From: Tetrahymena thermophila SB210
Lineage: Eukaryota; Ciliophora; Oligohymenophorea; Hymenostomatida; Tetrahymenidae
NCBI RefSeq assembly: GCF_000189635.1
Contig: NW_002476507.1
Coordinates: 1 to 64,000, forward strand
Reading direction: 5' to 3'
DNA length: 64,000 nucleotides
Part shown: piece after piece, positions 6,283-55,935 of the stretch
Layout of the letters: every line of letters starts with the position of its first letter
Position numbering within the stretch: the stretch's first letter is position 1
Notes under the pieces: model-generated
What the model was told of the DNA's origin: nothing
Database searches by the model: none
What the model saw: the letters and a program-made list of their open reading frames with translations, nothing else
Program-made: the position numbers and the translations under genes

Positions 6283-9200
6283 ATGGTAAGAGAAAGACAA
6301 TATTTGAGCAAATAAGCAAATGTCAATTCTTAGACGGGCAACGTATCAGGAAGTATGAACTAGTAGTCAATTAGCAATACAAATACAAGTAATATTTAGA
6401 ATTAATTAGCGAATGCAGGAAACCATTCTAAGAAGAATTCATAAAGTAATATCTTTTCATATAGAAAGAGTCCTTAATCTCAATTGAACGATATCGTTCT
6501 TTAAAGCAGAGTATAGCAAAATCTTGGATAAAAAGGGATAGAAACTCGTTATTAGAAAGATAATTAGTAGTAATTCGGTTAAAGTCAGCAGCATTTTTAA
6601 TAAGAAGGGTATTAACAAATTTATAATCATGATAAAAATAATTCAAAAGGTGATGTTGTAGGCAAATTCTAAAATGGTTTTAAGCATATCAATTAAATGA
6701 TTTAAAATGTTGATAGGGAAAGCAACCTATAAAAAGAATAGCAATAACTTTAGTTTCATCAACAATAATTGCAGTCTTAGTAGTAGCAGTTGAATTAATT
6801 TACTATAAATACTTCTAATAGCAGCAATAATTATAACAATAACAACAACAATAAAAGATTAAATTCTCCTGCTTCCTCTACTCTTCAATTACAAGGACAA
6901 AATATTTCTCATAGATAATCTGTTGTAGGAAATAATATTGAAGAGTTAAAGCAATCATTAAAGCAGGGATTAATTAACTATCAATTTTAGAATTAGGATT
7001 CAGATAATTTATAAAATAACCCTTAAAATAGTAATTAGCAAATTAGCAATCCTATTTTAGCTAATAAAAATGGTTAGAATAATAGCAATAATCATGATCC
7101 AAATGAAAATCTTTCTATTTTAGCAAGTAAACTCTCTGAAATAGCATAGAATTTTTCATCTCCAGGGAAAAAATTAAATACAGCTTCTTCAACAATTTAT
7201 GCAAACAATTCAAACGTTCCACCCTCAGCTATGAAAAGTAGTAATACATTTATACAACCTAACAATATTAACTAACAATATAGTTAATCTATGCAATCCT
7301 CTCGTCATGCTTCTGGCAATCTTTACACTGCAGTATCATCTAACAATTAATTGCAAAATAATTAGTAAACTCATTAACAATAATAATAGTAAGTAAAATA
7401 ATAAAACGGAATTTCAAATTTGAGTAACTTAAAATATTCATAAAGCATTAATTAAAATTTAAACTATCAACCATAAAATAACAACAATTATAATAATTAG
7501 CAACTCTAGGATTATATTTAAGAATAAAATATTAAGCATTTTTCTCCTGGAAGGTATGTCGTTAACGAATATACTAAGTAACCTACTTCCTCATTAGCCA
7601 CATCTATTGCTAATACTCAAAAAAAATCTCAATAATAGACTTAATAGAAATAAAACCAGAATTTGAATGGTATTTATTAAGATATGTAAAGCAATCAAAC
7701 TACTTCTAATTAAGAGTTGAAGCCTTTTATCACAGACAGAGTGGTATACAATTAAAGTAATTTGAAATATAGATTATCAAAATATTAAATTTATCTTTTT
7801 CTTATATAGATTGATAGAGATATTTTTAAATTCTTAATATTTTTTTAAAAAATTATTATAAGAAGATAGCTCAAATTTTTCTAAGAATTAGCTAGAAAAC
7901 AATCTACAAATCTAAAATGTTGGGAATAAACAACAAAGAAAAGGTGCTTTTAACAATAATATAACCAAAAAAAAGAGATAAGAAATGAAAGAATACCGCC
8001 ATTTTTCAAGCATAGATTTTAAAAACTCTGAATAAAACTCTCTCATAAATAATACTCTTTAGCATAATCATAACATAAGTACCTAACACAATGTTAATAA
8101 TACAGTTAGTCATAATTTATCTCAAATAAGAAACATAAGCTAAATACCCATGAATTAAAACTCTAAAAATGTAACAAGTATCTCAGCTGCAAATACTTCC
8201 AGGTAATAAAAGACAACACAAAATTAAAATGTAATTTAAACTGTTAATTCTTTGATTTCTGTTGAATAAAAAATGCAATTAATGCAAGCAAATAAACTTA
8301 TTAACAGCTTGTAAACCAATACAAATGCTTCTTCAGTTATTAATACCAATGGAAGTTGTTAACAAGATAATAGTAAACTTATTTAGCAAGATACTCTTAA
8401 AATAAATCATATAGCTCCTAATCCTTCGGCTTAGTCAACAATGGCTAATCCTACATAACTAACAAACTAAATAGGATTTAATTAAAACAACCAATATAAC
8501 AATTTATAAAATTAAGGAAATAACAGCAAGAGCAATAATGTTTATATTCTTAATAAATAGCATTAACATAATTCCAGTTAATCTTAATTATAAAAGTAAG
8601 AAAATAGTCCTAATTCTAATGCACCTTCTAGATTAACAAACAGAAACAATACTTAAAGAACGCAGTCAAATGTAATAACAAACAAGAATTCAGGTTAAAA
8701 TTTATTAAGTTAAAGCATCTAATAAAATAATGGACTTAATAATGGGAATAATAATTACTCCTTAAACGCCAATTTAGGAAAATCTACAAATACAGTAAGT
8801 TAAAATTCTAAAAACAAATATTCATTATATCTACTTCAGCCATCTCATTCTCCTGGACACTAAAACTCTAGTAACTTGTTGTAAAATTAAGGTAGGGTGT
8901 AATCAGCAACAAATAATTCCTCAAGTAATTCAAATTAAAACAAATTAAACTCAAACATCCATAATGCTAACAGTACATTACAAAATAATTACTTGCTTAG
9001 TTAAAATTCTTCTAAGGTATTAAACCCTGCATATTAAGTAGCAAACAATAACTCAAATAGCGGTAACAGCAGCTTGGGAAAGCTAACATAGAACCTGTTT
9101 GGGAATCTAAGTATTCTATATAGTAATGTTAATTCAAGCAATGGAAATATAAATGGATTAAACAATAATCTTGGTACCACAAGTAGTCCGAATACTTATA

Positions 9201-12200
9201 ATGAGATTAATTAAAATTCTACAAATAATCTTAATTTAAAAATTTAGAAGCAATTATAGAACCGATAATACCCTCAATAAACATAATAGCAATAATTTAA
9301 TTTATTAAGCTCAAATATTGCTTAGTATAAAAAGTAAGGAGGTTCTACATCTATAGGAGTTGTTTAATAACCTTTGAGTGCAAAGAGTCCTGAATAAATG
9401 ATAAAAGAAAGAAGAAAACACTCTGAGTCAACTACTAACCATTCAAATAGTGCAAATAATACGAATGTAAAAATGTTTACTAATCTATCTTAAGGTAAGC
9501 AATTCGAAGAGGACCTTATTAAAGAGTAATAATCTGCTTCTTTTTACAAAAATATTTAAGTAGCGACAACTAAAAACTCTTTATAAAGTTCTATTTTACA
9601 GTAAGAACCCACTGTTTCTACTAAATCAGGTATCAATAAAACCAAGTTTAATTAATAACAATTCAATACCAATGAGCAAAATTAATTATTAAATTTAGAA
9701 AAAGATAAGATCATTTAAAAGAATTAGAAAGTTATGGTTTATAAAAATTCAAGCAAAACTCCTGAAAGAGAGCGTTATCCATTCAATACATCATCTTCAT
9801 CGTCTAGAAAAATAGAAATTCCTAAAAAAAGCAAAACTCCTAAAGATAGAGTACCTTCAAGTTAAAGTTCTGCTCCAAACTCAATTGCCTTAGACATAAG
9901 TTAAAATAAGGATCTCTTATAAAATAATTCTAGGCTTAAATTAGATGAGAGATAAATAATTAGTAATACTAATAATAATCAAATAGCCAAACATATGTAA
10001 AATAACATCATTAATTATCAAAATTTTATCTAGTCACACAAACAAGTAAACACATTAGATTTTAAGTATTAGTAGTAAACAAATAATTCAGATGACTAAA
10101 ATGAACTCTTAAAAGATTTTATCCTTGAAGATAATTAAAATAACTACAAATTCTCTTCAAAATACTAAAATGGTCATAATGATTTACTGTAACAATATAA
10201 TAATTTGCAGTTACCACTGAATCATGTAATTTTGCAATAAAATTTTTTAAATGAAGAAGACGATAAAACTAATTTAGAAAATGAGTAAAATTACTAATAA
10301 GAAGAATAGAAATTTGATTAAAATAGCTTAGCTTAAAATATCTATGATCACCAACAAAATATTTCAATCAATTCTTCTCATCTTTAAAAATTCAATTAAG
10401 ATTAATCATCGAATATTTAAAATACAAACCCTAATTAATAGCTATCAGACTCTAACAATATAGGTTCTTCTGAAGTTTCATCAAAAATTAATAATTCTCA
10501 TAACTCTTTTCTTAATCCTACAAGTAATAGCTCTTATAATCCAATAAAATTATAAACAATTGACTCCATGATTATACATCAACCATCTCAAGTATTGCAT
10601 ACTGGAATGACTGCTGACAAAGTTTCTTCATAGCCTTATCAAATCAATTAGCAATATGATGAGAGTAGAGATTATCATGAATATGCAGATTGTAGTAATG
10701 TTCTGAATAATTCACAGGGGATAGATTAGAATAACTTAAGAAGTATATCTAATTTAAAATAATAAAACAATGCTTACATAAATGATGAAGCAAATAACGA
10801 CAATAACATAAATGAAAAATACACAGGAATTATAAATATGTAAAATTTAGAACAAGCAATTCAGTAATAAAAAGGAAAGCAAGATAGATTTAATTAAAAT
10901 CAATAAGATTTATAGAATTTTCTTTCAGACAATTAAACTAATCCTGATCAATTGAGAGAAAAAATATATAAATAGCAAGAACAAGACCTAAAAAAGTATG
11001 AAAACTTAAATTAATTCTTAAAGACAAATTAAAAACAACTAATTAATAGTTCTGAAAAAGAAATTAACAATAAAAATTTACAAGATGATAGCAATAAACA
11101 AAGTACCAAAAATCTTAAATAATAGCTAGGAGATAAAAGGAAGTATATATTCTAAGAATCAAGTGATAAAAAAAGAAATTAAACTCCTGTAAATCAAACA
11201 AACAAAGGGATATCATCTTATCATACACAAAGCAGCACAAATAAAGCAGGAGGTCATCACAACCAATTAAAAATTAATTAGGATGAAATGCACAATTATT
11301 TAAATTCTTCAGCAAAAAAACCATAAAAACCTAACACATAATCAAGTCCAACGAGTAAAAACAACTTAATGCAAAACTTTTAGTCATATGAACCAAGTTT
11401 AATAAAAAATTATCCTTAAGTTCAACAAGCATAAGCTTAATAATATAAATTTTCTGAAATAGAGAAAAATAACCCAGTTTCAATTCTAAATACATAAAAC
11501 TCACAAGATTATTGTGAATAAAAAGAAGAGTCAAGCACAATTAGTGATAGACTTTAAAATATAAATAATGTTAAATAATAATATACAGATTAATAAATTG
11601 AGCTTAATTTAAATTAAAATGGATACTAAGATTAAGTAGTCAGTTATGAGAAAGCTCTACATGCAAATCTAATCCAAACTCTGTCAGACCATAAGCATAA
11701 GATAAATGCAATAGCTTATAATAGCTAAGATAACACAATTTTTACAGCCTCACATGACTATAATTTAAAAGCCTTTACTTCAGCTTCAGGTGAATAGTAA
11801 GATTATTATTGTTTCCAAACTATAAAGCATAAAAGATGGGTAACTTCATTAGAATACATACCTAATTTTAAAATTCTGCTTTCAGGTGGTGCAGATGGAC
11901 TAATTAAATTATTCAGGCCTTCATAAAATACTATTGTTGAAAGCAATAGATAATCTAATAATTAATAAAATGAATAACTTATGACTACAGTTTAATTAGA
12001 ACAGTTCAACAAAGGTCATTCAGGTACTGTAAGTGGACTTAAATATTTAAATGATACTAATTTGGTAAGCTCTGGTTCTGATGGATATGTAAATTTGTTT
12101 GATTTAGAAACACTTTAAGTTAAATAAAAGTTTAACTAAAATTCTGTCATTTAAAGTATTGAATGGATACCTTAAAGCAACCTTTTACTTAATTTAAATG

Positions 12201-12643
12201 AACACAATCTATCTTTTATTGACCTAAGAGATAATAAAATTGCTTTTTAGATTTAGAACTCAGATTTTTTATGTCTGAAATAATTAGATACAAATTGTTT
12301 TTTAGTTGGAACAGGGCAATATTATAATCAACAGACTAACCAAATTTGTGAAAATACCCCTTCAGCCTTGTTATTTGATTTACGTAATAACATGAATTAA
12401 CCTGCAAGTATTTTTAAACCATTTAATGGAAGTAGAATTAATTGCATTGAAAAATATGAAGATAAAAATATTTGTGTCATCGGCACTGATTAAAGCTTTG
12501 AAAGTATTAATTTAACAAACAACGAAGGAAACATACTTGATTCCTAAATTCCTTCTGTGAGATGCATTTCAATCGATAATGTTCACAATAGAATCTACTT
12601 AGGTTGTTAAAACCATGATCTTAGAATATACAAAACATTTTGA
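6283..12643 (+). CDS. Giant Gln/Asn-rich protein with C-terminal WD40 repeats
   Basis: The protein has about 2083 residues, from ATG at 6283 to TGA at 12641-12643. There is one intron near 7757-7865; an alternative acceptor at 7817 would also keep frame. Residues 1 to about 1750 are low-complexity Asn/Gln/Ser sequence with most Gln written TAA or TAG, plus a basic Ser/Pro patch near 9760-9860 (S-K-T-P-E-R-E-R and K-K-S-K-T-P-K-D-R). From about residue 1756 a WD40 propeller follows: S-D-H-K-H-K-I-N-A-I-A-Y, then F-T-A-S-H-D-Y, L-L-S-G-G-A-D-G-L-I-K-L-F, G-H-S-G-T-V-S-G-L and S-S-G-S-D-G-Y-V-N-L-F-D-L. WD40 domains are protein-docking platforms, so this is probably a scaffold; the partner is unknown. 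The long N/Q tract is prion-like in composition. The C-terminal domain is secure; the specific orthologue is not recognised. Confidence 0.88.
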
Positions 12644-20636: not shown

Positions 20637-23600
20637 ATGAATAATAATAACAGCATGATTTTTTACTAAGATGATGGTATTTATTTACACACTTAAAATT
20701 AATTATTTAGCTATTAAATAGGTTTAATATGGCTAGAAAGCAGCATAATTATAAACTTAGCTTAATAGAAAATTATTAAAAATCATACATCTAATTTCTG
20801 TTTTATAAATAGGTTAGCAATCTAAAGAAAGAGCAGATTAAGTTTTAATTTTGTAAAATGCGTATAATCCATATCAAATCAATGGAATAGAGTAGTAACA
20901 AATGAATTTTTATTCTGGATACGAGCAAAACCAACAAATATTCAAGGACAATAGCTTATTTTTGTTAAATTAAAATAATTTATTACACTAATACTATCTC
21001 TCAGGAAGCGGTTAAGTTGGGAATATTGTTTAAAATGAAATAGAATAAAATCAACCATCATAATGCAATTTATACTCTGCTAATTTTTGTTAAGCTTTTG
21101 AAGAAGAATAGTATTCAATTTAATAATTACGTAAATCTGAAAAAGAAATATATTTGGATAAAAAATTGAGCTCAAAATGCTATTACTAGGAATAAAAGCT
21201 GATAAAAAAAAGGAAAATAGAAACAAACGAAGAATAATTTTAATTAGTCTAAAATAAAACACAGCGTGAATTGCTAGAAGAAAAAGGTAAATAAATATAT
21301 TTAAAATTTTAGACATTTTAATTTTTATATTTTAAAATAATTGAGGTACATTCTTAATATATCTTTAATGTTTCTTTATGGTAAAAAAATCATTTTATTT
21401 TGAGATTAAATTAGTAATAATTTATGAAATTATCAAAACCAGCGAACTGATTAAAAAATCAATTTGGAAAATTATAATTTTTACAAAAAATAAATTTTAA
21501 TTATTTATATTTTAGATTAACTTTTTTATAAATTAAAATAAAATCTTTGAATAATAGCTGTGTATAATGGAAACAAGATAAACTCAGGAGAAGTCAGCTA
21601 TAACTCTTATATTGATGGTATTGGTATAAATAATTAAAGAGCTTCAATCTCACAATATTGTTAAGCTCGTTTTATTGACGAAAAAAATCAGTTCAGAAAA
21701 AAATAGGGATAGGGTAATATTACTGATCTTATTAGAATGAATGAGTATAACAGCTAAAATTCATGGGGATTTCAACGTTTAGATGAAGATAAAAAGTATG
21801 ATTGGGTTATCGAAGACATATTTATTTAAAATAGTTGGTCTGCAAACATGGGGAGCGGAAAATCTTAAATGCTTGGAAAAGGTGCATTTGGAAATGTCAT
21901 AAAAGTAAAAGATAACAACACATAAGTACAATATGCTTTGAAATTCATTAAAAAAATCTTCTTTAGTAAAGCCATCACTGAAACAGAAATCATGAAATAA
22001 TTAAGTGATGATAAAAATATTATAAAATATTATGATATATATTTATATGATTAACAAATGGAGAGAAACTAAGTTATAGAAATTCAGCAATATCTAGTCA
22101 TTGTTATGGAATTGGCTTAAGCAAGTCTTGAAGATATTCTTAAATAACGTATAATTTGTCAAGCTCATTGGACTACTGTTGAACTATTGACAATAATGAA
22201 ACAGATTTCTTTGGCTTTGCAGAGCTTAGCTAAAAAAAATATAGTTCATCGAGATATAAAACCTTCTAATATTTTATATTGTCTCAAATCATAATCATAC
22301 AAATTAGCCGATTTTGGTGAAGCTAAAGTCGTTGAAGAAATTAACTTTGATTATCTTCATTCTCCTAGAGGAACCAAGAGGTATATGAGTCCTGAATTAT
22401 TGAATGGACTTAACAGTATTAAGCAAGCGAATTAGTTAGCAAATTAATTATTGAACGATTCTCCAAATAACTTATCCAACGAGTAAATAAATGAGAACAA
22501 CAAAAATAAAGAATTAAATATGGTTTTTGATAAAGTGATTGAATTATAAAGTTAAGAGCAAAACTATTAAAATGATTGCATTAAATCTGAAAATAATTAA
22601 AAAATAGAAAACTCTGAAAATCCTAATAAAAACAATTAAATAATTCAACATAATAACTTTGATATGAAAAAGGATGAGGAGGAAAAAAATTTAGATGCCA
22701 ATTAGGCATAATCTTCTTAAAAAAATAAAAGCAACTCTGAATTTAAACAATTGAATATTAAAACTAATGAGACTAGAGAAGTTATGTATGAACCTTATTC
22801 AAATGATATCTATTCTTTGGGCTTGTGCTTTTATTAAATGAAATACCTTGATGATCTTTCATATTATAATGGGCATAAAAGCAAAACTTCTACAACTGAA
22901 GATTACCTATAATCTAAATTATAAGAAGATGATTAAATAGATAAGCTCATTTCCAAGATGATTAGCTACAATCCAAAGTATAGACCTAATATCAATCAAG
23001 TATTGAATTTTATTGAGGAATAACTTAGTAAAATTTCTTAGGAATTAGAAGGAATGACTTTTAATTATGAATCATCATCTTCTTCTAATACAATTGATTA
23101 AAACAAAGTTACTAAATCTATTAATTAAACTTAACTAATTGATACCTTCGCATAATAAGGTAGAAATATTCCATAGTCTTAAAGTGAGCTATTTTAAGAA
23201 GAAAAGGTGCGCCAACCTTCTCGCTAAATATTATTTAATTTAAATAATACATACGAAAATATTTTAAATGATAAGATCGTAGTTGGGAGTTCTAAATATT
23301 CAAACTAAAACAATAAAAATAATAGTAAATAGCATTCATTTTCCGACTATGAGGAAGATGAAAGTATTGATGATGAAGATGAATAAAATGAAGATTATGA
23401 AGAAGAAGATGAGGATGAAGAAGAATAGTAAAAAAAATAAATAGAATAATATTAACAGACAAATTCAAACTAAGAAAATAATATTGAGGTAGGGATAATA
23501 ACTAAAATTAATAAATAAGCAAGTGATTAATAAAACTAATAAAAAAATCTTCAGCAATAAAAGAAGTTAGCAAAATAAAACAAAAAAGAAAATATAACTC

Positions 23601-24832
23601 AGAATTTATTTGAAGAATGTAAAGCTAACGAACCTGCAGAACATCATAAGAGTGATTTTATAGAAAACAAAGTTAATGAACTGCAATTTTTAAAGCTTAT
23701 TGAAACTAAAAACTAGAGCAATCTTTCAATTACATAAAAAATTTAATATATGATTGCAAGAGCACAGGCTTATGAGAGTTTATTGAAATTCTAAAAGGCG
23801 AGAGATACTTACTAAGAATTATACGAAAAGCACTTTCAGTGCTTATCTCCATTTGATTAAATTAATTTACTTAAAAATCTTGGAAGATTAGATCATAAAA
23901 TGTCGAAATTCAATTCATCAATAAAGTTTTATTAGCAGCTTCTTGAACTGCTTAAACAAAGTAAAGATTTAAATGATTTGTAAATTAGTGAAGTTTACCA
24001 AATGTTGGGCTCTGCTCACTGTTTTTAAGGAGATTACTAAGCTGCTCTCTTATACTATGATGAGAGTCTGAAAAAAAAGGAAATGCTTAAAGACTCTATA
24101 GAAAAAGAAGAAATTGCCGATTTACTTGTTTATATTGGCCTAGTTAAAAAACACTTATAGCAATATCAGTCTTCTCTAGAAAATTATTAAAAGGCACTTG
24201 AAATAGTCAACGAAAACCCAGAAAAAAATTTAAAAAGAATTAGCTGTATAAAAAAAAATATGGGTACTGTCTATGATCACCTTCAGAACAATTCCTAGTC
24301 AATCCAGTATTTAGAAAGTGCTTTGCAAGACACAATATAAGCATATGGAACAGAGAACGAGAGAGTAGTTAATTGCCTAAACAAACTAGGTATAGTATTA
24401 GTTCATAGTGGTATTCATAATCACGAACAAGCAATAAGGCATTTTGAAAGGGCTATTAAAATTATGAAAAAGCTCTATAAGATGGACACTATAAATGAAT
24501 CTCTGAGAAAATAGTTCAGATTTAAAGACAATCCCCTTGATGAAGCTATAAATCCTTTATACACAAGAGCTCTATAAGTAAACGAAGAAGCCTATATTTT
24601 ATATAGATAGGTTTACGATTATTATCATGTTGGTGTAGGAATCATTCTCGAAATTAGAGGAATGATCTATCACTATCTTTAAAAATTTTCTTTTGCAGTG
24701 AAATACTACACAGAAGCTCTCAACATTTATACCATTATATTAAAACCAGAACATGAATTTGTTAAGCGCTCGTAAGCATTTGTAAATATGGCTAAAACTG
24801 AAAATAAATTTTAAAACTTTCCAAAAATTTGA
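20637..24832 (+). CDS. Protein kinase with split catalytic domain and C-terminal TPR repeats
   Basis: Three exons (20637-20721, 20813-21286, 21558-24832) total 1278 codons, giving 1277 residues. The first 280 residues are Gln/Asn-rich. The kinase starts with M-L-G-K-G-A-F-G-N-V (about 291) and Y-A-L-K-F-I-K-K, then has H-R-D-I-K-P-S-N-I-L (about 418), L-A-D-F-G-E-A-K (about 436) and Y-M-S-P-E-L-L (about 464). About 130 Asn/Gln/Lys-rich residues then separate the SPE motif from N-D-I-Y-S-L-G-L-C-F (about 602). An acidic Asp/Glu run lies at about 783-812. Residues 914 to about 1270 are TPR helices, such as G-D-Y-Q-A-A-L-L-Y-Y-D-E-S-L and F-A-V-K-Y-Y-T-E-A-L-N-I-Y, which normally bind partner peptides. 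Catalytic Lys, HRD and DFG are all present, so activity is expected. The first intron begins GTTTAA, an atypical donor. Confidence 0.88.
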
Positions 24833-28303: not shown

Positions 28304-31300
28304 TCAAAAGTTTTAATCAAAATTTACATTTTCAGGTCCAACATCTTCTTCATCATCAAAATCAATAACTTCTTCTCCATTATGGTCTAACATTGTAGGG
28401 TCAAATTTCTAACCTCTTTCTCCAAAATAAATTTCAGACATGTCTCCAGGAGATTTCATTCCTTAAGTTGGATTTACTTAAAGATTAGACGTGTGTGATA
28501 ATTCTCTCTAGATTTTCTTTTTTTTCTTTTTCAAGGCATTCTTTCTAGAGCTTTATGAGGAATTAACATTAGCTTCTATTCTTTGAAGATATATCTTTTC
28601 TAAATTCTTTAATTTGTTTACGTCAACAGCAGGAACTTTGTAAGCTATATTCTAACTTGAAGGTGAATTACCTTTAGACCTACTACTTAGATTGCCTCTA
28701 TTCATTTAAGTGTAGCTCATTCGAGGATCTTAATTGTTAAAACTTGAATTAAATTGATTTTGGTAAAAACCTTAAGGTATAGCAGTTTAAGAAGAAGTGT
28801 TATTATTAAAATCATCGAAGTTTTCTATTAAGAGTTAGTCTGTTGTATTGCCATTTGCATTAGGATTAGCTAATATAGGATTAATATTTCCATTATTATT
28901 TGAGTTGATTGTACTTAGATTATTGCTCTATCCTTAAATGTTAGGCTAAGTATTTTGCTTTATGTCTACTGAGAGAGCATTAACATTTTAAGAGCGTGAG
29001 TTATTAAGTCCAACCTGCTTTTACCTTTTCACTGGACTATTTGATTTGTTCATACCATTTTATGGATTTTAACTGTTCATAGATAAATTCGAGTTACTTG
29101 GCTGTAAAGTCTTTTACTTTTATTAATTTTGTTATAATTTGCTTGAGCCATCAATATTGTTCTAACCAAATTAATTCACCATCTTTTTATCAAATCCTTA
29201 GCTATTTCCAACTCCAGTTGTGAACTATCCTGCCTATGGTTATGATTACCTTGTATTATTTCCATCGAACCCAGTATTATTCATAAAGGCTTAACTTTGG
29301 CTGCTAGAAATATTTCTATTTAGTTAACTCAAGCTTTATTAGAGAAGTTACATTTAAAGTGCACTTTAAGGTGGTTAAACAAAATAGTCTTCTTCATATC
29401 TTTAGTTAAGTATATTGAAGTCTGTTGGACTAATTTCATTGAAATTCATTTCCGCCTCACTAGCTGTGTGCAAACTTTCATCAGAATCATAAATCTATGT
29501 TAAATCAATAAATTAGTTAACATAAATATAATTTAAACAATATCTATTACATTGTTCTTTTTTTCAGATTGTCCTTTTTTCTTTTTTGAATTTTGATTAG
29601 CTCCTTCATCATCTGAAGTACCAAACAAATTGTTCTTTTATGGACCTTTCTGATTCTTATTGTTTCCTTTTACAATATCATTAGGAGTTATCATTTTCTT
29701 ATTTTTACCCATTTCATTTTAGTTTTTATCTTTTTTAGATAAATCCTCATCCAAATCTTCGACTTCTGGCATAATTTTCTCTACCTTATTTTCATCTAAA
29801 TTTTAAGCCTATTCAATTCAAATAAATAATAAAATAATTTATCATAATTTTTAATGTAATTTTTTAAAATTCATACTTTTTTTGTCTTATCCTATTATCC
29901 TTCCTTTTGGTTGTTTTTATTTTATTCATTTTAGTCGTTAAGAGGATTATTAAAATAAAACAACATGTCATCTTCAGCCTTGTATTAATATTTATTTATT
30001 ATTTAAAATTAAAAAATCATTTTTATAAAAATAGTTCTTATTCTTTACCTTTTTGTTTTTATCATCTAAAACCTTTCCATTTTTATCTAATTTATTTCCA
30101 TTTTTATCAATTCTGTTACCATCTTTATCAATCCTATTACCGTCTTTGTCAATTCTATTACCATCTTTATCAATTCTGTTACCATCTTTGTCAATTCTAT
30201 TTCCATCTTTATCAATTCTATGTCCATCTTTATCAATCCTATTGCCGTCTTTGTCAATTCTATTGCCATCTTTGTCAATTCTATTTCCATCTTTATCTAT
30301 CCTATTGCCGTCTTTGTCAATTCTATTACCATCTTTATCAATTCTGTTACCATCTTTGTCAATTTTATTTCCATCTTTATCAATTCTGTTACCATCTTTG
30401 TCAATTCTATTTCCATCTTTATCGATTCTGTTACCATCTTTATCAATTCTATTACCATCTTTATCAATTCTATTCCCATCTTTGTCAATTCTATTACCAT
30501 TTTTATCAATCCTATTACCGTCTTTGTCAATTCTATTACCATCTTTATCAATTCTGTTACCATTTTTGTCAATTCTATTACCATCTTTATCAATCCTATT
30601 TCCATCTTTATCAATTCTATTACCATCTTTATCAATTCTATTCCCGTCTTTGTCAATTCTATTTCCATCTTTATCAATCCTATTGCCGTCTTTGTCAATT
30701 CTATTACCATCTTTATCAATTTTATTTCCATCTTTATCAATTCTATGTCCATCTTTATCAATCCTATTGCCGTCTTTGTCAATTCTATTTCCATCTTTGT
30801 CAATTCTATTTCCATCTTTGTCAATTCTATTTCCATCTTTGTCAATTCTATTTCCATCTTTATCGATTCTGTTACCATCTTTATCAATTATATTACCATC
30901 TTTATCAATTCTATTCCCATCTTTGTCAATTCTATTACCATTTTTATCAATCTTATTTCCATCTTTATCAATTCTATTCCCGTCTTTGTCAATTCTATTT
31001 CCATCTTTATCGATTCTATGTCCGTCTTTATCAATCCTATTACCATCTTTATCAATTCTATTACCGTCTTTATCAATTCTGTTACCATCTTTATCGATCC
31101 TATTACCATCTTTGTCTATTTTATTTCCATCTTTATCAATTCTATTTCCATCTTTATCAATCTTATTTCCATCTTTATCAATCTTATTTCCATCTTTATC
31201 AATCTTATTTCCATCTTTATCAATCTTATTCCCCTCTTTATCAATTATATAACCATCTTTATCAATCATATTTCCATCTTTATCAATCTTATTACCGTTT

Positions 31301-34300
31301 TTGTCAATTCTATTGCCTTCTTTATCAATTTTATTACCATCTTTGTCTATAAGATTGCCATCTTTATCTATCCTATTTCCATTTTAGTCAACTAATTACT
31401 ATTATTCATTCTTATTATTTGCACTTTAGGCAGCTGCAGCACCTACTACTGCTCCTCCAATTAAAGAAGTACCTGCAATCAAAGCTGCTTTTTCTTTCAT
31501 ATTTTCATCACCAGACTATTTAGAAAATAATCGTTAGCGTACCTCTTCTCCTTCTCCATCATTTTCATCTTCTTGCAATCCTACTCCCATACTTACATTG
31601 TTCATCATTTATCCTGAAGGATCTTAAGGATCATAGTAAACTGTGTGACTTTAATTTAACTATGAGGGGACTTAATCACTACCATTATTTTTGTTGAAGC
31701 CGTTACTGTTTTAAAATTAGTTTGAATTATTTAAATTTTTGTTTCTTTAATTTTCTAAATCTTCTTAATCATCCAGAGATATCATTTTATTTTTATCAAA
31801 GCCTTTTGAATTTGCTAAACCTGCCATATTAGAGGCCCCAACCATTTTTTTCATAGTTTGATTCTAATAATCTTCATCATAATAATCTTCATCCTCATCT
31901 TCTAATGAGTTTTCTTCTATAGGTGGGAAATCTTTAAAAAAAAATAAATCTTAAAACAGTATTTTTTAAATAAAATTTACTTTTATGGTCAAATACAGGA
32001 GCAACATGCTTTTTCTCAAATTATCTCTTTTTTCCAGGTTTAGAGGACTCTGATAACTCATCCTGAATAAGATAAGGTGCTCCATTATTAGAGTTATTTA
32101 ATACATTTCTATCTATAGCGGCATTTGTTGAAATATCATTTGGGTCCATTACTTAACTGTAAGGTTACTGTAATTGTTCTACTTTAGTCACTTTGTTATC
32201 CTTGCCAAATTCGGTAAGACTAGAATTTGACTCTGATTTTTTAAGATGTCCATAAACTGATCTTTACCTTGCCCTCTCCATGTAAGATTAGTCGAAGGGG
32301 AAGAATCGTTGAGTAAATTAGCTCATTTGTTCAAAATTCATATTGTAGTTTTCTTCAAAGAAGGTTTCATTCTTCAATGCCTCCCAAATCATGAAAATAA
32401 TCATAAAAATGGTCACAAGCAATGTATCTAGACTTAAAATATAAATCTAAGTGGAATTTTGATATTTATAGCTAAATATGGCTGCACTTAAAATAATTAA
32501 GAAGCTATTAAATATAACACTTAGCACAGAAACTTTATTGAAAGGAGATAATAAGTCAATATCTTTAAGTTTTGCCTTAATTTAAAAAGCAATTTGAATA
32601 TTTATTTTTACAAAATAAAATTTACCTTAAAAAAGTTTTAGTTAAAATACTTGCAGAAGATAATTTTTTAAATTTTGAAGGAAATGAGGCATGAAAAAAA
32701 TATTGATACATTTTTACACATCCTATTTTTATGAGATAATTCCCACTCCATAAATGAGGTATCTTTAGATATTGTTTTTCTGTATAATATGTAATAAACT
32801 AAATTAAATAGGTAAATAAGGACGAATCCTACGGCAGCAGCAATTGTAGTTATTGACATAATTCCATCATTTAAATAGCATATCGCTATCAATATTATCC
32901 AAGATATCCATTCAAAGAGAGCACAAAAACCCACAATGCAACCAGGAACAAATGTTTGAGGTTTTTCATATTTAGAGAAGTATACAGATATGCAGAATGC
33001 TATGCATGACAAAAGCATAGGGAAGGGTACTACTTTAGAGCTATTATCTGATACTGCTGCCGGCACAATTGCCTATTTACAACCACCAGCTCCGTCTGGT
33101 ACAGGAGCACTACTAGGACAAGTAGTGTAACAGACACCCTAAATTTAAACAAATAAATTATTTTTTTTAGTTTTTAAAAATTAGTAAATTTACTTAATAA
33201 ACAACTGCTGATTAAGAGCATGTAGTACACAGTGATTTATAAGAACATGCAACACAATAATTCATGCAAGGTTAGACTGTCCATGTTGCATTGTCTCCAA
33301 AGTTACCAGCAGGTATTTAAGATTATGTAATACATTTTTAGTTATACAAATATGTGTTAGGGTAACAAGAAGTACAAGTAGTGCTTATGGTATCACAAGC
33401 TTAGCAATTTGGATCACATAGACCACAAACATATACTCCGCCTTGCATAAGCCTTGAATATCCTGAAGGGCAGCTTGAAACACATGTTGTTTAATATTTA
33501 ATATATCCAACAGAGCAAGCGGTACAGTTTGTATCAGAAGTACAAGTATTGCATCCTGTGGGGCAAGGTTTACATTCTGTTCCTCCATTAGCTAGGTAAT
33601 ATCTAATTATTAAAAATAATTTTTAATATACTTCTGTAAATAAATTTTTTAAAGAGTTACGAGCTATCACATTAGGTTACACATTATGTATTTTATTTTT
33701 TATAAAAGTTGGGATCGCATGAAGTGCATACACCAGCAGAAGAACAAGTTAAACAATTTCCTACAGTTGAGCAAAGTTAACATTTATTGTTAGATCCCTC
33801 TAAAAATTAAATAAATAAAAAAAATATTTTAAAAAACATTTCAAAAATGCCCTTTTTATTGAATATCTTTTATTTTTTTATCTTATTTTATTTTATAGTA
33901 AATTTTTTAAATATTTTTTGAAAAAATGATCAATGAAAGCAAAAATATTTATATTTTATTCAATTATTGTTGTTATTTATCAGTTTTAAAAACTTTTATC
34001 TGTGTTATTCAATTAATATTTAAAAAAATATTTTTTTTTTATTACAGAAATATAGATTAGGACAATTTGCGCTGCAAGTGTTTATTGTTGGATCTAAGTA
34101 AAGATTGCCTGAGCAGGAAGTGCAAAAAGTAGATGAATTCATACAAGCTGTGCATGGCCTAATTAATTGTTAAAAATATTAAATATTTAATTTATTTTTT
34201 AAATATCGAATACGGGCTGCATGATGCGCATATACTTTATCCACTTTGAGTAGTTTAGTAAGACTATGCTGGACAGCTAGCCACACAATTTGGAACAGCA

Positions 34301-37300
34301 GGTACACTATTTAAAATTATTTCTTAAACATATACATTTTAAGATTAATAATAAATAGTATTTTGAGGATAGCAAGTTAAGCAGCTTGAAGGATTGGCAT
34401 CTTAGCAAGTTTTACAAAATGATGATACATTACATTTATTCTTGTATACGAGATTAGGAGAAGTGTATTATTTAATTGGATAAAGCGTTCCGCCAACTAT
34501 TTCATTGAGAGTTATAGTGAATGGAGTATTTGAGTTCTGAATTAATTAGTTAGGATTATTAACAGACATTGTAATCAAGGATGGGTCTTAATTTGGATAG
34601 CAAGAAGATAAAGTTAATTTAGATGTAGTATCACCCGCTGACCCTGTACAAGTAGATAAATTTACAGTTACACTAGAAGGCAGTACAAATTATACTAGAT
34701 CAGTTGCTGTTACAACTATATTACCATTTTATGGGAAAGGAGATACTGTTTAGATATTAAATTAATATTAACTTGCAATTCCTAGTTAGCTGTTTGTAAT
34801 CACCAATTATACTGTAGATAAGCTCTAAAATTATGTATTTTAAATAGTCTAAGATGATTCATTTCCAACCTAATTTTATGAGTACCCAAGATCTCCTGTT
34901 ATTTGGTATGGAGATGTACTCAAATAATTTAAAACATTTTAAATATTAAATTGATAGTTTGTAGATGGCTATATATCGGTATTGAAAGTAACTGTCTATT
35001 ATATTTATAAAAATATTTTGTTAATTTATTTTTGAAATCATTCTATTTAGAGATACCAACTAATTAGTTGAAGGTGTATTAATAGTGCAGCTTAGAGTAA
35101 GCCCTGGTGTGATAGGTGAGCAAGTTGTTTATGCAGTTATTAGAAAATTATGAGTATTAGTTGGTGCTGTAAAAGTTAAAATCATTATAGACGGTTTGGC
35201 AAGTAGTACAGTAGGATTGAAAGATACTGTAAACACAGCTGTTGCTAAATTTTAAGGACTACTTGAAATTACCCCAAAAGATGAAAAACCTACTAATTTA
35301 ATATTATCTGTACTACCATAGTTAATAGTGCTTTATAAAAAAGTTTTATCTGGTGTAACATCATATGCAACAATCTAAATGTAATATATTAATTATTAAA
35401 GAATATTATCATAAAAATGAAATAATAATGATACTTAAAATTAGTAGTCTAAATTTGAAACTGGTGGATTTCTTATAGTAAACTGCACATTAATTGGAGT
35501 ATTAGCAGTAATTTATTGAGTAAATGTCAATGTTAATGGAAATTAATTATTTGATGAAGTAGTGATACCAGTTGAAGGACTAGTAACAGATATATTATTT
35601 ATTTCTAAAACATAATTTGGAAAATTAACAATAATTTAGTTAGTGGTTAGCAAATCAACTGGTGAGATAAGTGTAAGTTTGTAAGGAGAAAGCGTGTAAA
35701 CATTCTTTACTCCTGGAGCATTATTTACTAGCTAGGCTGTAGTAAAAGGAGCAGGTAGAGTGGTAAACCCAAAAGTATTTGAATTATCATTAGACTCAGA
35801 AAGACCACCATTTCTCAAGAATGTTTAAACTGAAAACTTTGAAAATTATATTATTGTTGGGTTTTTCACTTGATTTATAGTAAAAACAAATCCAATAGCC
35901 TTTTAAGTTCCAGAATATGTATATGACAAGGTAACAACAGTAGGTGTACCAGCTTTTGTGCATGTAGTGGGATTAGAAAGCAGTGAATTATCAGTAAGAA
36001 TAAATTTTAAAGTACAAGAAAAGGCTATTAAATTAAAAATTAAATTATGTTTACTAATTAAAAAAAAATTATTAATATACTTCCACCAGCATTTATTGAT
36101 AAAGATGAGGGAAGAGTAAGTTAAATTTTTCCGGATGTAGAAAGAAATGAAAATTAGCTTTTAATTGTAAATTCGTGAGTTGCTGAAGTTGCACCTACCT
36201 GTAAGTCATTTTAATTAGAAGTTGTTACTTAAGCAGCTTTAAGAGTATTTTAATTTATTTATATTTTAGTGTTACTGCATTAAGTATTCAAGATTTTGTC
36301 AGACTAAAAATTGATATAAAAAATATTTTAATTTGAGCTTTAAAAATTAAAAATAAATAAATTACAACGAGATCCCTTTTATACTAACTATAGCCTGCTA
36401 ATGGTAAAAAGGGTTAAACAAAGAATTATGCAGATATGTTAAGTCCATCTATATCATAAGGAAGTTAAAATGATGGTATAATAATAGATAACCATTGTAT
36501 GTATATGCCAGCCATGCAAATAAATGGATAGGATTAATAATTTACATTACCATTTAAATATTGATTAAAAAATATCACTTAATTGTTGGTACTAACAGAA
36601 TTCGATGGTACCCCAGCATCTGCTTGTGACCCAGCATTTTAAATTTGCATCGTAATACCAGTTATAGCTTGCTAATTGGGTGGAAGATTAGATAAAGTAA
36701 ATTACACAGAGGAGTATATATCTTAAAAAAAAATAGGATACATCAATATTTTTACAAATACAGTCTAACCTGACATGCATGCTTAATTAGTATAGCTTCC
36801 ATTACTTGTAGGAGAGCATAGTATTTATACATTTCCGTTTTAATTACAATCTGGAAATGTCTTAGATGATGCTTACACGTTAGTATTTGAAAATTATGTT
36901 TAAAAGGCAGTATACACAGTTGAACTAGGACTCTACTAATAATTAAAAGCTGCTATAATTATCAATTAGGTTCCTTCTAATACTATATTAGCGGATGTAA
37001 ATGGATTTGTCATTTAAAAAGTTAAATCAACTATTTAACCATTTAGATTTATTTATGTGAAACTTAATGCAACTTTGTACAAACCATTTGGATTATCAGT
37101 AGTAACAGTTGCTGATAATGAACTTAGTAATGTAGATTTGAAGCTTGCTTATTATGGTACTGATGTTTGCTAGCAGCCACTATCAGGTAAAAGAGTATCA
37201 GGATACCAATACATTGGAAGAGTTAAAGCAATTTAATTTATTGCTGTAGTGAGAGTCGGAGTTGTCACTTTTAAACTGTATTCACCTATATCAGATATAA

Positions 37301-38010
37301 TTTTCGATGGAGTAGTTGATGAGAAACCAAACTATATATTTGCATCTTTTAATAAAATAAAAAATTATTTTTAAGTGTTAAGCCTTGAAGCTTCATTCAA
37401 AAAAGAAGAATTTTTATGTTGTGTTGTTATTTATATTAATTAAATTATATAAAAAGAGTTTGCATATAATAATATTTAATTTATTTTTACCTAAAATATT
37501 ATCTGGTTATACTTATAATGGTGTAGAAAGGCCAATAGAATTAGTTGTGCCATATTATACAGAGTCATAAAACGTTTAAATATTTATTGTTCCTCCATAT
37601 TAAAAGGTACTTACTATTTGTATAGTTAACCAATTTGGAGGTACATTTTATCCACTACATGGCATTTAAGAATTAGTATCTAATATTGTGAAAGGATTTG
37701 GAATTGAAATTTTTTTTTGGGTGGAATCAAATACAGCATTTATTGAAGTGGTTTTGTCAAGTTTACAAAATTAATCGTTATTTACAGCTTAGTATGAAAT
37801 TTTTGTGATACTACTAAAATTTATACCCAACAAATCACTTAGTTGTAGTGTTAAGAATTTAGCATTTTATGGAGGATTAAATGTCACAAATGTAATTTTT
37901 AAACTAAATCCTGAAGCTCCTGGATTTCTTTAAATTGGCTAACACTAAAATAATCTTATCATTAAAAGGATGACTTGTAATAATAAGATTTTATTCTTTA
38001 TCAAGTTCAT
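28304..38010 (-). CDS. Giant receptor-like membrane protein: signal peptide, beta-rich ectodomain, Cys-rich repeats, about five TM helices, heptad-repeat tail
   Basis: Fifteen exons from 38010 down to TGA 28304-28306 sum to 2872 codons (2871 residues). Introns lie at 37346-37490, 36304-36365, 36025-36080, 35375-35434, 34996-35056, 34159-34213, 33800-34045, 33603-33660, 33139-33193, 32576-32625, 31932-31980, 29979-30048, 29809-29876 and 29495-29550. A signal peptide (about 1-23) precedes a Thr/Ser/Asn-rich, probably beta-sandwich ectodomain to about 1060. Furin/growth-factor-receptor-type Cys-rich repeats follow (about 1060-1385; C-N-T-C-T-S-D-T-N-C-T-A-C). About five hydrophobic helices lie at 1390-1580, then a long tail with an acidic patch, a Gly-zipper-like segment (A-G-T-S-L-I-G-G-A-V-V-G) and about 63 heptads at 1908-2349. 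The last 500 residues are Gln/Asn-rich and end in an acidic patch. A surface receptor or adhesin is likely; the ligand is unknown. The C-terminus is cytoplasmic if the helix count is odd. Confidence 0.85.
30070..31390 (-). repeat. 21-bp tandem repeat encoding about 63 DKDGN(R/K)I heptads
   Basis: Every 21 bp the minus strand encodes seven residues with the consensus D-K-D-G-N-R-I, inside exon 12 of the receptor-like gene. Position 6 alternates Arg or Lys, Asn is sometimes His or Tyr, and the second Asp is sometimes Asn or Glu. Third codon positions vary (GAC/GAT, GGA/GGC/GGG) while the peptide stays constant. The unit contains an Asp-x-Asp-Gly-Asn core like part of an EF-hand or thrombospondin type-3 calcium loop, but there is no EF-hand helix and no 12-residue loop. 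Because 21 is a multiple of three, other frames on both strands also stay open here; those ORFs are shadows. Confidence 0.95.
30421..30951 (-). repeat. Higher-order duplication inside the heptad array, period 441 bp
   Basis: A block of about 85 bp starting at 30421 (atcgattctg...) recurs almost base for base from 30862. The displacement is 441 bp, exactly 21 repeat units, and the shared block includes the same synonymous variants and the same Asp-to-Asn change. This indicates segmental duplication or unequal exchange within the array rather than independent drift of single units. Confidence 0.75.
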
Positions 38011-55102: not shown

Positions 55103-55935
55103 TATTATTTGTAATATTTTTTTAAATATCAGCAGTAATTAAAAAAAAATTTATTTTCTTTTTTATATTTTTTATTTAAAGTGCAAAAAAACTTAGAAAG
55201 TTTTATTTCAAAAGATTACTAATAAGTTTTTGTTTATCTTTGCAGACTAAAGAGGGGGGTCATTTATTTAAAAATATTAAGTATGTTATACAAATTAGTT
55301 TTAAAAAAATAAAATTTAATTTTTTATTTTTATTTTGTATTAAATATTGATTTTTAAAAATAAATTAAAAAAATAATGAATCTAATTTTTTTATGTCGTT
55401 GATATTTATAAATTCTCATTTTAATTAATAACAATTATTATTTATTTAAAAAATGAAATTAAATTAAATTAAATTAAATTAGGTATTTTATTTTTTAGAA
55501 TGATCTAAAATATCAATAAAATAATTTAAAAATTAAAATAAAATCTTAATTTTTCAAAAGAATTTATTTTTTTAATAAAGTTTACACTTTTTAATACTAA
55601 TACTATGGAAGAAGGGTGAATGCAAATTTTTAAGAGAATTATTGTTTAGATTACAAATAAATAAAATTGATAATGCATAACTATCTATCTACTTGCAAGT
55701 ATTTAAAATCACCATTATTTTTTTAATAAACTATTATGCCTTTTTATAATGAAATTATGAAAGAGAGGTGAATGAAAATTAAAAAATATTGTTTAGATAA
55801 TAAATTAAGAAAAATTGATAAATGCATATCTATCTATTTATTTATATATATATTTATAGGTATACAAAATCATAATTATTTTTAAAGATCAGGTAATATT
55901 TTTAATTTAATTGTCAAATAAATAGTGTTAGCAAA
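55103..55935. other. Intergenic region with AAATT repeat and a degenerate duplication
   Basis: AT-rich spacer holding five tandem AAATT units at 55456-55480 and a diverged direct duplication at about 55565-55890 (separate entry). No gene is seen. Confidence 0.6.
55565..55890. repeat. Degenerate tandem duplication of about 150 bp
   Basis: Two adjacent blocks share an ordered series of landmarks: tttttaataaa, then a purine-rich gaagggtgaatg (first) versus gagaggtgaatg (second), then attgtttaga, aaattgata, gcat plus ctatctat, and finally aaaatca with attatttttt or attattttta. Copy 1 spans about 55565-55717 and copy 2 about 55718-55890. They are diverged, so the duplication is old. They lie directly upstream of the secreted Cys-rich gene. 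Confidence 0.6.

Follow-up and report, generated by a model that had tools for sequence, protein, structure and literature searches.

A 64,000-nucleotide stretch of the Tetrahymena thermophila SB210 genome (contig NW_002476507.1, positions 1 to 64,000; hereafter the window) carries on its minus strand a gene for a large receptor-like protein, and this gene contains an in-frame tandem array of 63 heptads with the consensus D-K-D-G-N-(R/K)-I. In line with this source, two stretches of exon in the assembly's telomerase reverse transcriptase gene match PDB 6d6v (T. thermophila) without a difference, apart from retained-intron and edge sequence. About 63 such units had been proposed in a first-pass annotation of the window, and the count holds. 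We suggest that the array is a neutral polyampholyte spacer or scaffold lying between the membrane and the C-terminal motifs of the protein, preferably folded as a beta-meander and otherwise disordered, an account to which we give an even chance of being correct.

At the DNA level, Tandem Repeats Finder (TRF) reports a 21-bp tandem array at 30077-31391, with 62.6 copies, 85% matches, 0% indels and a score of 1695. Translated from the minus strand under ciliate code 6, in which TAA and TAG encode Gln, it yields 63 gap-free heptads (31389..30067) in the frame of the gene-model exon, with neither a frameshift nor a stop in 1323 bp. Open reading frames (ORFs) of at least 200 amino acids (aa) number four in the window under table 11, all of them at the array, and 89 under code 6. 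Asp at position 1 and Gly at position 4 are invariant (63/63 each). Position 2 is K in 62 units and Q in one; position 3 is D in 54, N in 7 and E in 2; position 5 is N in 58, H in 3 and Y or K in one each; position 6 is R or K in 58, I in 2 and L, M or V in one each; and position 7 is I in 61 and L in 2. Exactly DKDGNRI is found in 39 of the 63 units and DKDGNKI in 8, with 14 distinct peptides encoded by 34 distinct DNA units. The earlier description of a periodic acidic/basic array is right as to the near-perfect period, but the charges are balanced (119 D/E versus 121 K/R in 441 aa), giving a net charge of about zero. A degenerate exact heptad pattern matched 39 places in the assembly, every one of them within the array; the reversed control pattern matched none.

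The gene model that places this array in a receptor-like protein was built by hand from the sequence, and its splicing and expression are inferred; it may contain further short in-frame introns. Cryptic splicing within the array is conceivable, since its units include the words GTAAT and TAG. It comprises 14 GT-AG introns of 49-246 bases and 2871 codons without an internal stop, ends in TGA, and predicts a product of 318 kDa (Table 1). The signal peptide, Cys-rich ectodomain and membrane helices that had been read in this gene were all recovered, the first and last by hydropathy and the Cys-rich region by its match to Furin-like_2 (41.9 bits, Pfam cut-off 28). No Pfam match was found in the ectodomain outside the Cys-rich region. 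The tail is rich in N/Q/S on both sides of the array (31% and 37%).

Table 1. Features of the array gene, in window coordinates (TM, transmembrane).
Feature	Position	Strand	Basis or remark
Gene model	28304..38010	-	15 exons, 2871 aa, hand-built
63 in-frame tandem heptads, aa 1909-2349	30067..31389	-	TRF, gene model
Inferred single exon with the entire array	30049..31931	-	between GT-AG introns 31980-31932 and 30048-29979
Exon 1: start codon ATG, N-terminal hydrophobic stretch (read as signal peptide), first part of ectodomain	37491..38010	-	gene model
Exons 6-9: end of ectodomain and Cys-rich region	33194..34995	-	Furin-like_2 above Pfam cut-off
Exon 10: end of Cys region, TM at about aa 1394-1412, 1426-1444, 1451-1469; weak segment 1502-1520	32626..33138	-	hydropathy
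Exon 11: TM at about aa 1544-1562, 1575-1593; start of polar tail	31981..32575	-	hydropathy
Hydrophobic Gly/Ala segment, aa 1876-1894 (AALIAGTSLIGGAVVGAAA), shortly upstream of the array; possible extra TM helix	31432..31488	-	
Last exon: C-terminal tail with paralog-shared stretches (e.g. IYDSDES, YKVPxxDxxKLKxLE)	28304..29494	-	

By hydropathy only, the membrane region has five strongly hydrophobic segments, and a sixth (1502-1520) of weaker hydrophobicity contains two lysines. When the sixth is taken as non-helical, successive loops carry 2, 0, 13 and 1 K/R, a pattern that fits an N-out, C-in topology. The array had been placed inside the cell, and the five segments, with K/R mostly in the inside loops, argue for that placement: the tail is more likely cytosolic, provided that neither 1502-1520 nor 1876-1894 is a further helix. 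The second of these lowers the certainty of the topology. Its Kyte-Doolittle value is 1.82, against 0.85 and 0.13 at the equivalent place in two paralogs, and it scores at least as well as the first TM segment on a crude insertion scale (2.17 versus 2.38). Were it to cross the membrane, the array would lie outside the cell.

A search of the assembly with the membrane region gave nine matches, two of them in the gene itself, and identified five further loci on C179, C209, C250, C114 and C214. The C179 paralog can be aligned all the way from its N-terminus to its C-terminal tail, with both tail flanks preserved, and the C209 paralog has the Cys, TM and tail regions in common with the array gene. 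These are the two closest paralogs, and neither contains heptads; between the same landmarks, C179 encodes 188 K/N-rich aa as against 486 aa in the array gene. (The C179 piece, L026, stops about 112 bases short of the end of the gene match, and gene modelling left out L028, L031 and L032.) Because both closest paralogs keep the tail flanks without heptads, the array looks like a paralog-specific expansion among the paralogs examined and not like a family domain. Searching the assembly with the array and its flanks produced eight matches. Six fall in the array; of the other two, the C314 match has E 7e-7 and the C413 match is marginal, at E 0.7. With the filter off, low-complexity stretches of L026 and L032 aligned to the array at 21-22% identity, which we read as shared composition.

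In the C314 gene (L029:4000-6160), the only other clear array match in the assembly, the many DxxGN-K/R-I units have longer strands and, by eye, a period of about 15 residues. The C413 match (L030:4640-4830) lies in an apparent intron of a protein-kinase gene and, again by eye, repeats every seven residues in one frame.

Differences among the units fall preferentially at synonymous sites, and the array peptide therefore looks to be under selection. A minimum spanning tree of the 34 distinct units requires 50 changes, of which 27 are synonymous, where four mutation models predict 17-25% synonymous changes; codon positions 1, 2 and 3 take 11, 8 and 31 changes, and a dN/dS-like ratio comes to 0.18-0.28. 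The substitution pattern alone cannot separate the gene frame (27/50 synonymous) from one antisense frame (28/50), so the frame is decided by the exons. No block of at least three unit types recurs (0, against a shuffle mean of 0.084). Our reading is that the expansion may be old enough to have lost its block structure and has been maintained at the peptide level.

We propose that a 21-bp coding minisatellite expanded within the presumed cytoplasmic tail of one furin-like, five-TM surface-protein paralog, yielding a charge-neutral, gap-free module of 63 units. Its most likely role is that of a long spacer or scaffold, which would put distance between the membrane and the conserved stretches of the C-terminal tail and would offer one surface 63 times over. 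Each heptad would contribute one short strand around R-I, with a K-D-G turn joining successive strands; by arithmetic only, 63 x 0.48 nm gives a meander of about 30 nm.

The structural part of this proposal comes from an AlphaFold2 model of the array, for which the best structure matches, the TCP domain of CPAP among them, are open antiparallel sheets of a single layer. We tentatively assign the array to an open single-layer antiparallel beta-meander, a little short of an even bet. A regular solenoid, one of the earlier suggestions, is not favoured by the structure matches, which are mostly open antiparallel sheets. The single-layer beta fold of CPAP is described, in an excerpt of its report, as unique among natural proteins to its authors' knowledge (PMC3776556). 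The TCP (G-box) domain of CPAP/Sas-4 has about 20 strands, against 63 units here, and binds a proline-rich peptide of STIL; the array differs from it also in having a bare seven-residue period and a fold that is predicted only. It is rather unlikely, though conceivable, that the tail holds a 63-strand, single-layer ribbon of about 30 nm, acting as a rod or a repeated docking face and exceeding the CPAP TCP domain in length and regularity. A Pfam search of the exon (E up to 1), in which the HMMER filters drop weak matches, listed no TCP model; by sequence, the best match of the array in the PDB was SNAP-25 at E 0.2. If the meander is true, the array would be a natural single-layer beta sheet made of a minimal and very regular repeat, against which methods of repeat-protein prediction and design could be tested. 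Two observations limit this reading: the antisense control is also modelled confidently by AlphaFold2, as helix, and the composition of the array predicts disorder on the charge-hydropathy measure, with a fraction of charged residues of 0.54.

The disorder prediction also speaks for the most serious alternative, a disordered, well-mixed polyampholyte linker in which length matters more than shape and uniformity stems from slippage with mild selection. The N/Q/S-rich flanks likewise fall on the disordered side, and the C179 paralog has its K/N-rich low-complexity stretch at the same place. A pure linker should, however, tolerate more change than is seen: despite 34 DNA units with an excess of synonymous differences, positions 1 and 4 never vary and only I or L is found at position 7. 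The AlphaFold2 model and the precedent of PDG turns, as excerpted from PMC3776556, also favour structure, within the limits set by the helical antisense control and the disorder prediction. We regard the linker as possible, at somewhat better than one chance in three. Were the array disordered, it would still be a coding minisatellite whose peptide looks selected and which distinguishes one paralog in a surface-protein family.

A neutral minisatellite without a function of its own would fit the absence of the array from the two closest paralogs, and also the distribution of variation along it, with the edge units most varied and the central units most uniform by eye, as expected from slippage. 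We nevertheless consider it improbable given the open frame across all 1323 bp and the synonymous excess, for which binomial P ranges from 1e-5 to 4e-9 over the four mutation models; these values are indicative only, the units being non-independent.

The calcium reading that the first-pass annotation drew from the resemblance of Asp-x-Asp-Gly-Asn to a calcium-ligand core is not supported. EF-hand loops follow Asp-x-(Asp/Asn)-x-Asp-Gly with a hydrophobic residue at position 8, and Gly at position 6 is conserved in Dx[DN]xDG loops, according to an excerpt of PMC3123361. Like EF-hands and thrombospondin type 3 repeats, the array has Asp residues spaced as Asp-x-Asp with a hydrophobic residue close by, but it lacks Gly at position 6 (0/63), its unit is too short, and it contains no Cys; Dx[DN]xDG has no match in the array or in the whole protein. 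The RTX beta-roll is built on the nonapeptide motif GGxGxD, which is likewise unmatched, and both calcium motif families were ruled out by sequence pattern. If each D-K-D-G-N chelated an ion, the tail could be a buffer or a calcium-switched rod, and the Asp residues at 1 and 3, together with Asn at 5 and the hydrophobic residue, do give a partial EF-loop look; a 210-aa piece moreover scores 27.0 against RtxA (cut-off 20.8; 10 of 18 profile positions). On a 627-aa exon piece, however, RtxA falls to 12.2, position 5 is H, Y or K in 5 of 63 units, position 3 is E in two, and the net charge is near zero, so that calcium binding is unlikely and this explanation the least probable of those considered.

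That no named family fits was broadly right, although three Pfam models exceed their cut-offs on the exon: DUF16 (88.1 bits, cut-off 40; 55.2 on the 210-aa piece), DUF6944 (32.7, cut-off 32) and DUF6799 (29, cut-off 26.8; below cut-off on the 210-aa piece). LA_3659 scores 44.6 (cut-off 36) on all or part of the exon. We judge all of these, with RtxA, to be matches to the repeat period and not signs of kinship, a judgement that is not proven. In its support, the heptad has a single hydrophobic position and an invariant Gly, and profile scores arise easily on repeats: of two permuted heptads, one scored above the threshold for an unrelated family (LbR_Ice_bind, 39.4; cut-off 30). Against our judgement, neither permutation scores DUF16 or RtxA, and the DUF16 match thus depends on residue order. 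Matches to PHROG tape-measure and virion families, for which no cut-off is given, were judged in the same way. A heptad coiled coil has two hydrophobic positions per heptad and no fixed Gly; the array does not fit this pattern, having one hydrophobic position in 58 of 63 units and Gly in all 63. Plasmid records gave no match to the array. Literature searches returned no paper for the string DKDGNRI or for meander repeats (at least three of five terms together), and no title on a ciliate repeat protein among the matches listed for DKDGN.

Relatives of the unit occur outside the ciliate. In bacterial and archaeal genomes the heptad query gave at least 593 stretches with the pattern, of which at least 7 loci were confirmed; in viral contigs 4 of 165 were confirmed. 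Three proteins from Alphaproteobacteria metagenome-assembled genomes (MAGs; L034, L035 and L037) contain 57, 60 and 73 relaxed DxxGN matches in long mixed-unit arrays, within open frames of 1638, 2053 and 1680 aa; they may be large beta-repeat proteins, secreted or exposed at the surface. L034, the one of the three that was scanned, exceeds the Pfam cut-offs for Bflower_2, Bflower, DUF3659 and RHS_repeat, and by sequence it matches Rhs and teneurin chains. Rhs/YD repeats, teneurins, Bflower and DUF3659 have the turn motif D-x-(D/N)-G-N-x-(I/V) in common with the array, but in longer, mixed units as opposed to a bare heptad; the array scores 18.7 against DUF3659, below the cut-off of 24.8, and neither RHS_repeat nor Bflower was listed for the exon at E up to 1. 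Four viral-contig proteins (L041-L044) and one Alphaproteobacteria MAG protein (L040) carry short bare DxxGN runs in heptad register. The runs lie within open frames of 283-483 aa and comprise 4-6 consecutive units by eye (e.g. IDKDGNRIDREGNKVDEEGYILNKDGKRV) or 1-5 when counted with the relaxed pattern. The earlier statement that neither EF-hands nor thrombospondin repeats have a bare seven-residue period holds, but short bare heptad runs do exist in these proteins. PHROG gave no match for L043 or L044, phage records none for the L044 protein, and Pfam none above cut-off for L040 or L044. The DxxGN unit recurs as a turn motif, probably through convergence, and what is unusual in the ciliate array is the number and regularity of its units.

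The family architecture is that of mating-recognition proteins. According to excerpts of PMC10901506 and PMC3608545, MTA, MTB and MRC1 of T. thermophila are large, and each has five TM helices and a Cys-rich region of the GFR/furin-like type; the array gene is alike in architecture, with Furin-like_2 above cut-off and five strong hydrophobic segments by hydropathy. The same excerpts give masses of 161, 194 and 212 kDa, well below that of the array protein. MTA and MTB have a single terminal TM exon, whereas an intron splits the TM region of the array gene. Furin-like_2 has at least 58 matches in the genome (150 of 207 candidates scored), so the architecture alone is no pointer to mating.

Elsewhere in the window, CCAACC is repeated 75 times without error at positions 1-452, forming a telomere of the CCCCAA type, and the window thus starts at a chromosome end. 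An ORF at 7811-12643 (plus strand, 1610 aa) matches WD40 repeats in its last part, and another at 21560-24832 (plus strand) has a protein kinase domain and TPR repeats, each at about 121 Pfam bits. A second tandem repeat, at 55564-55837, consists of about 1.8 diverged copies of a 152-bp unit with 78% matches.
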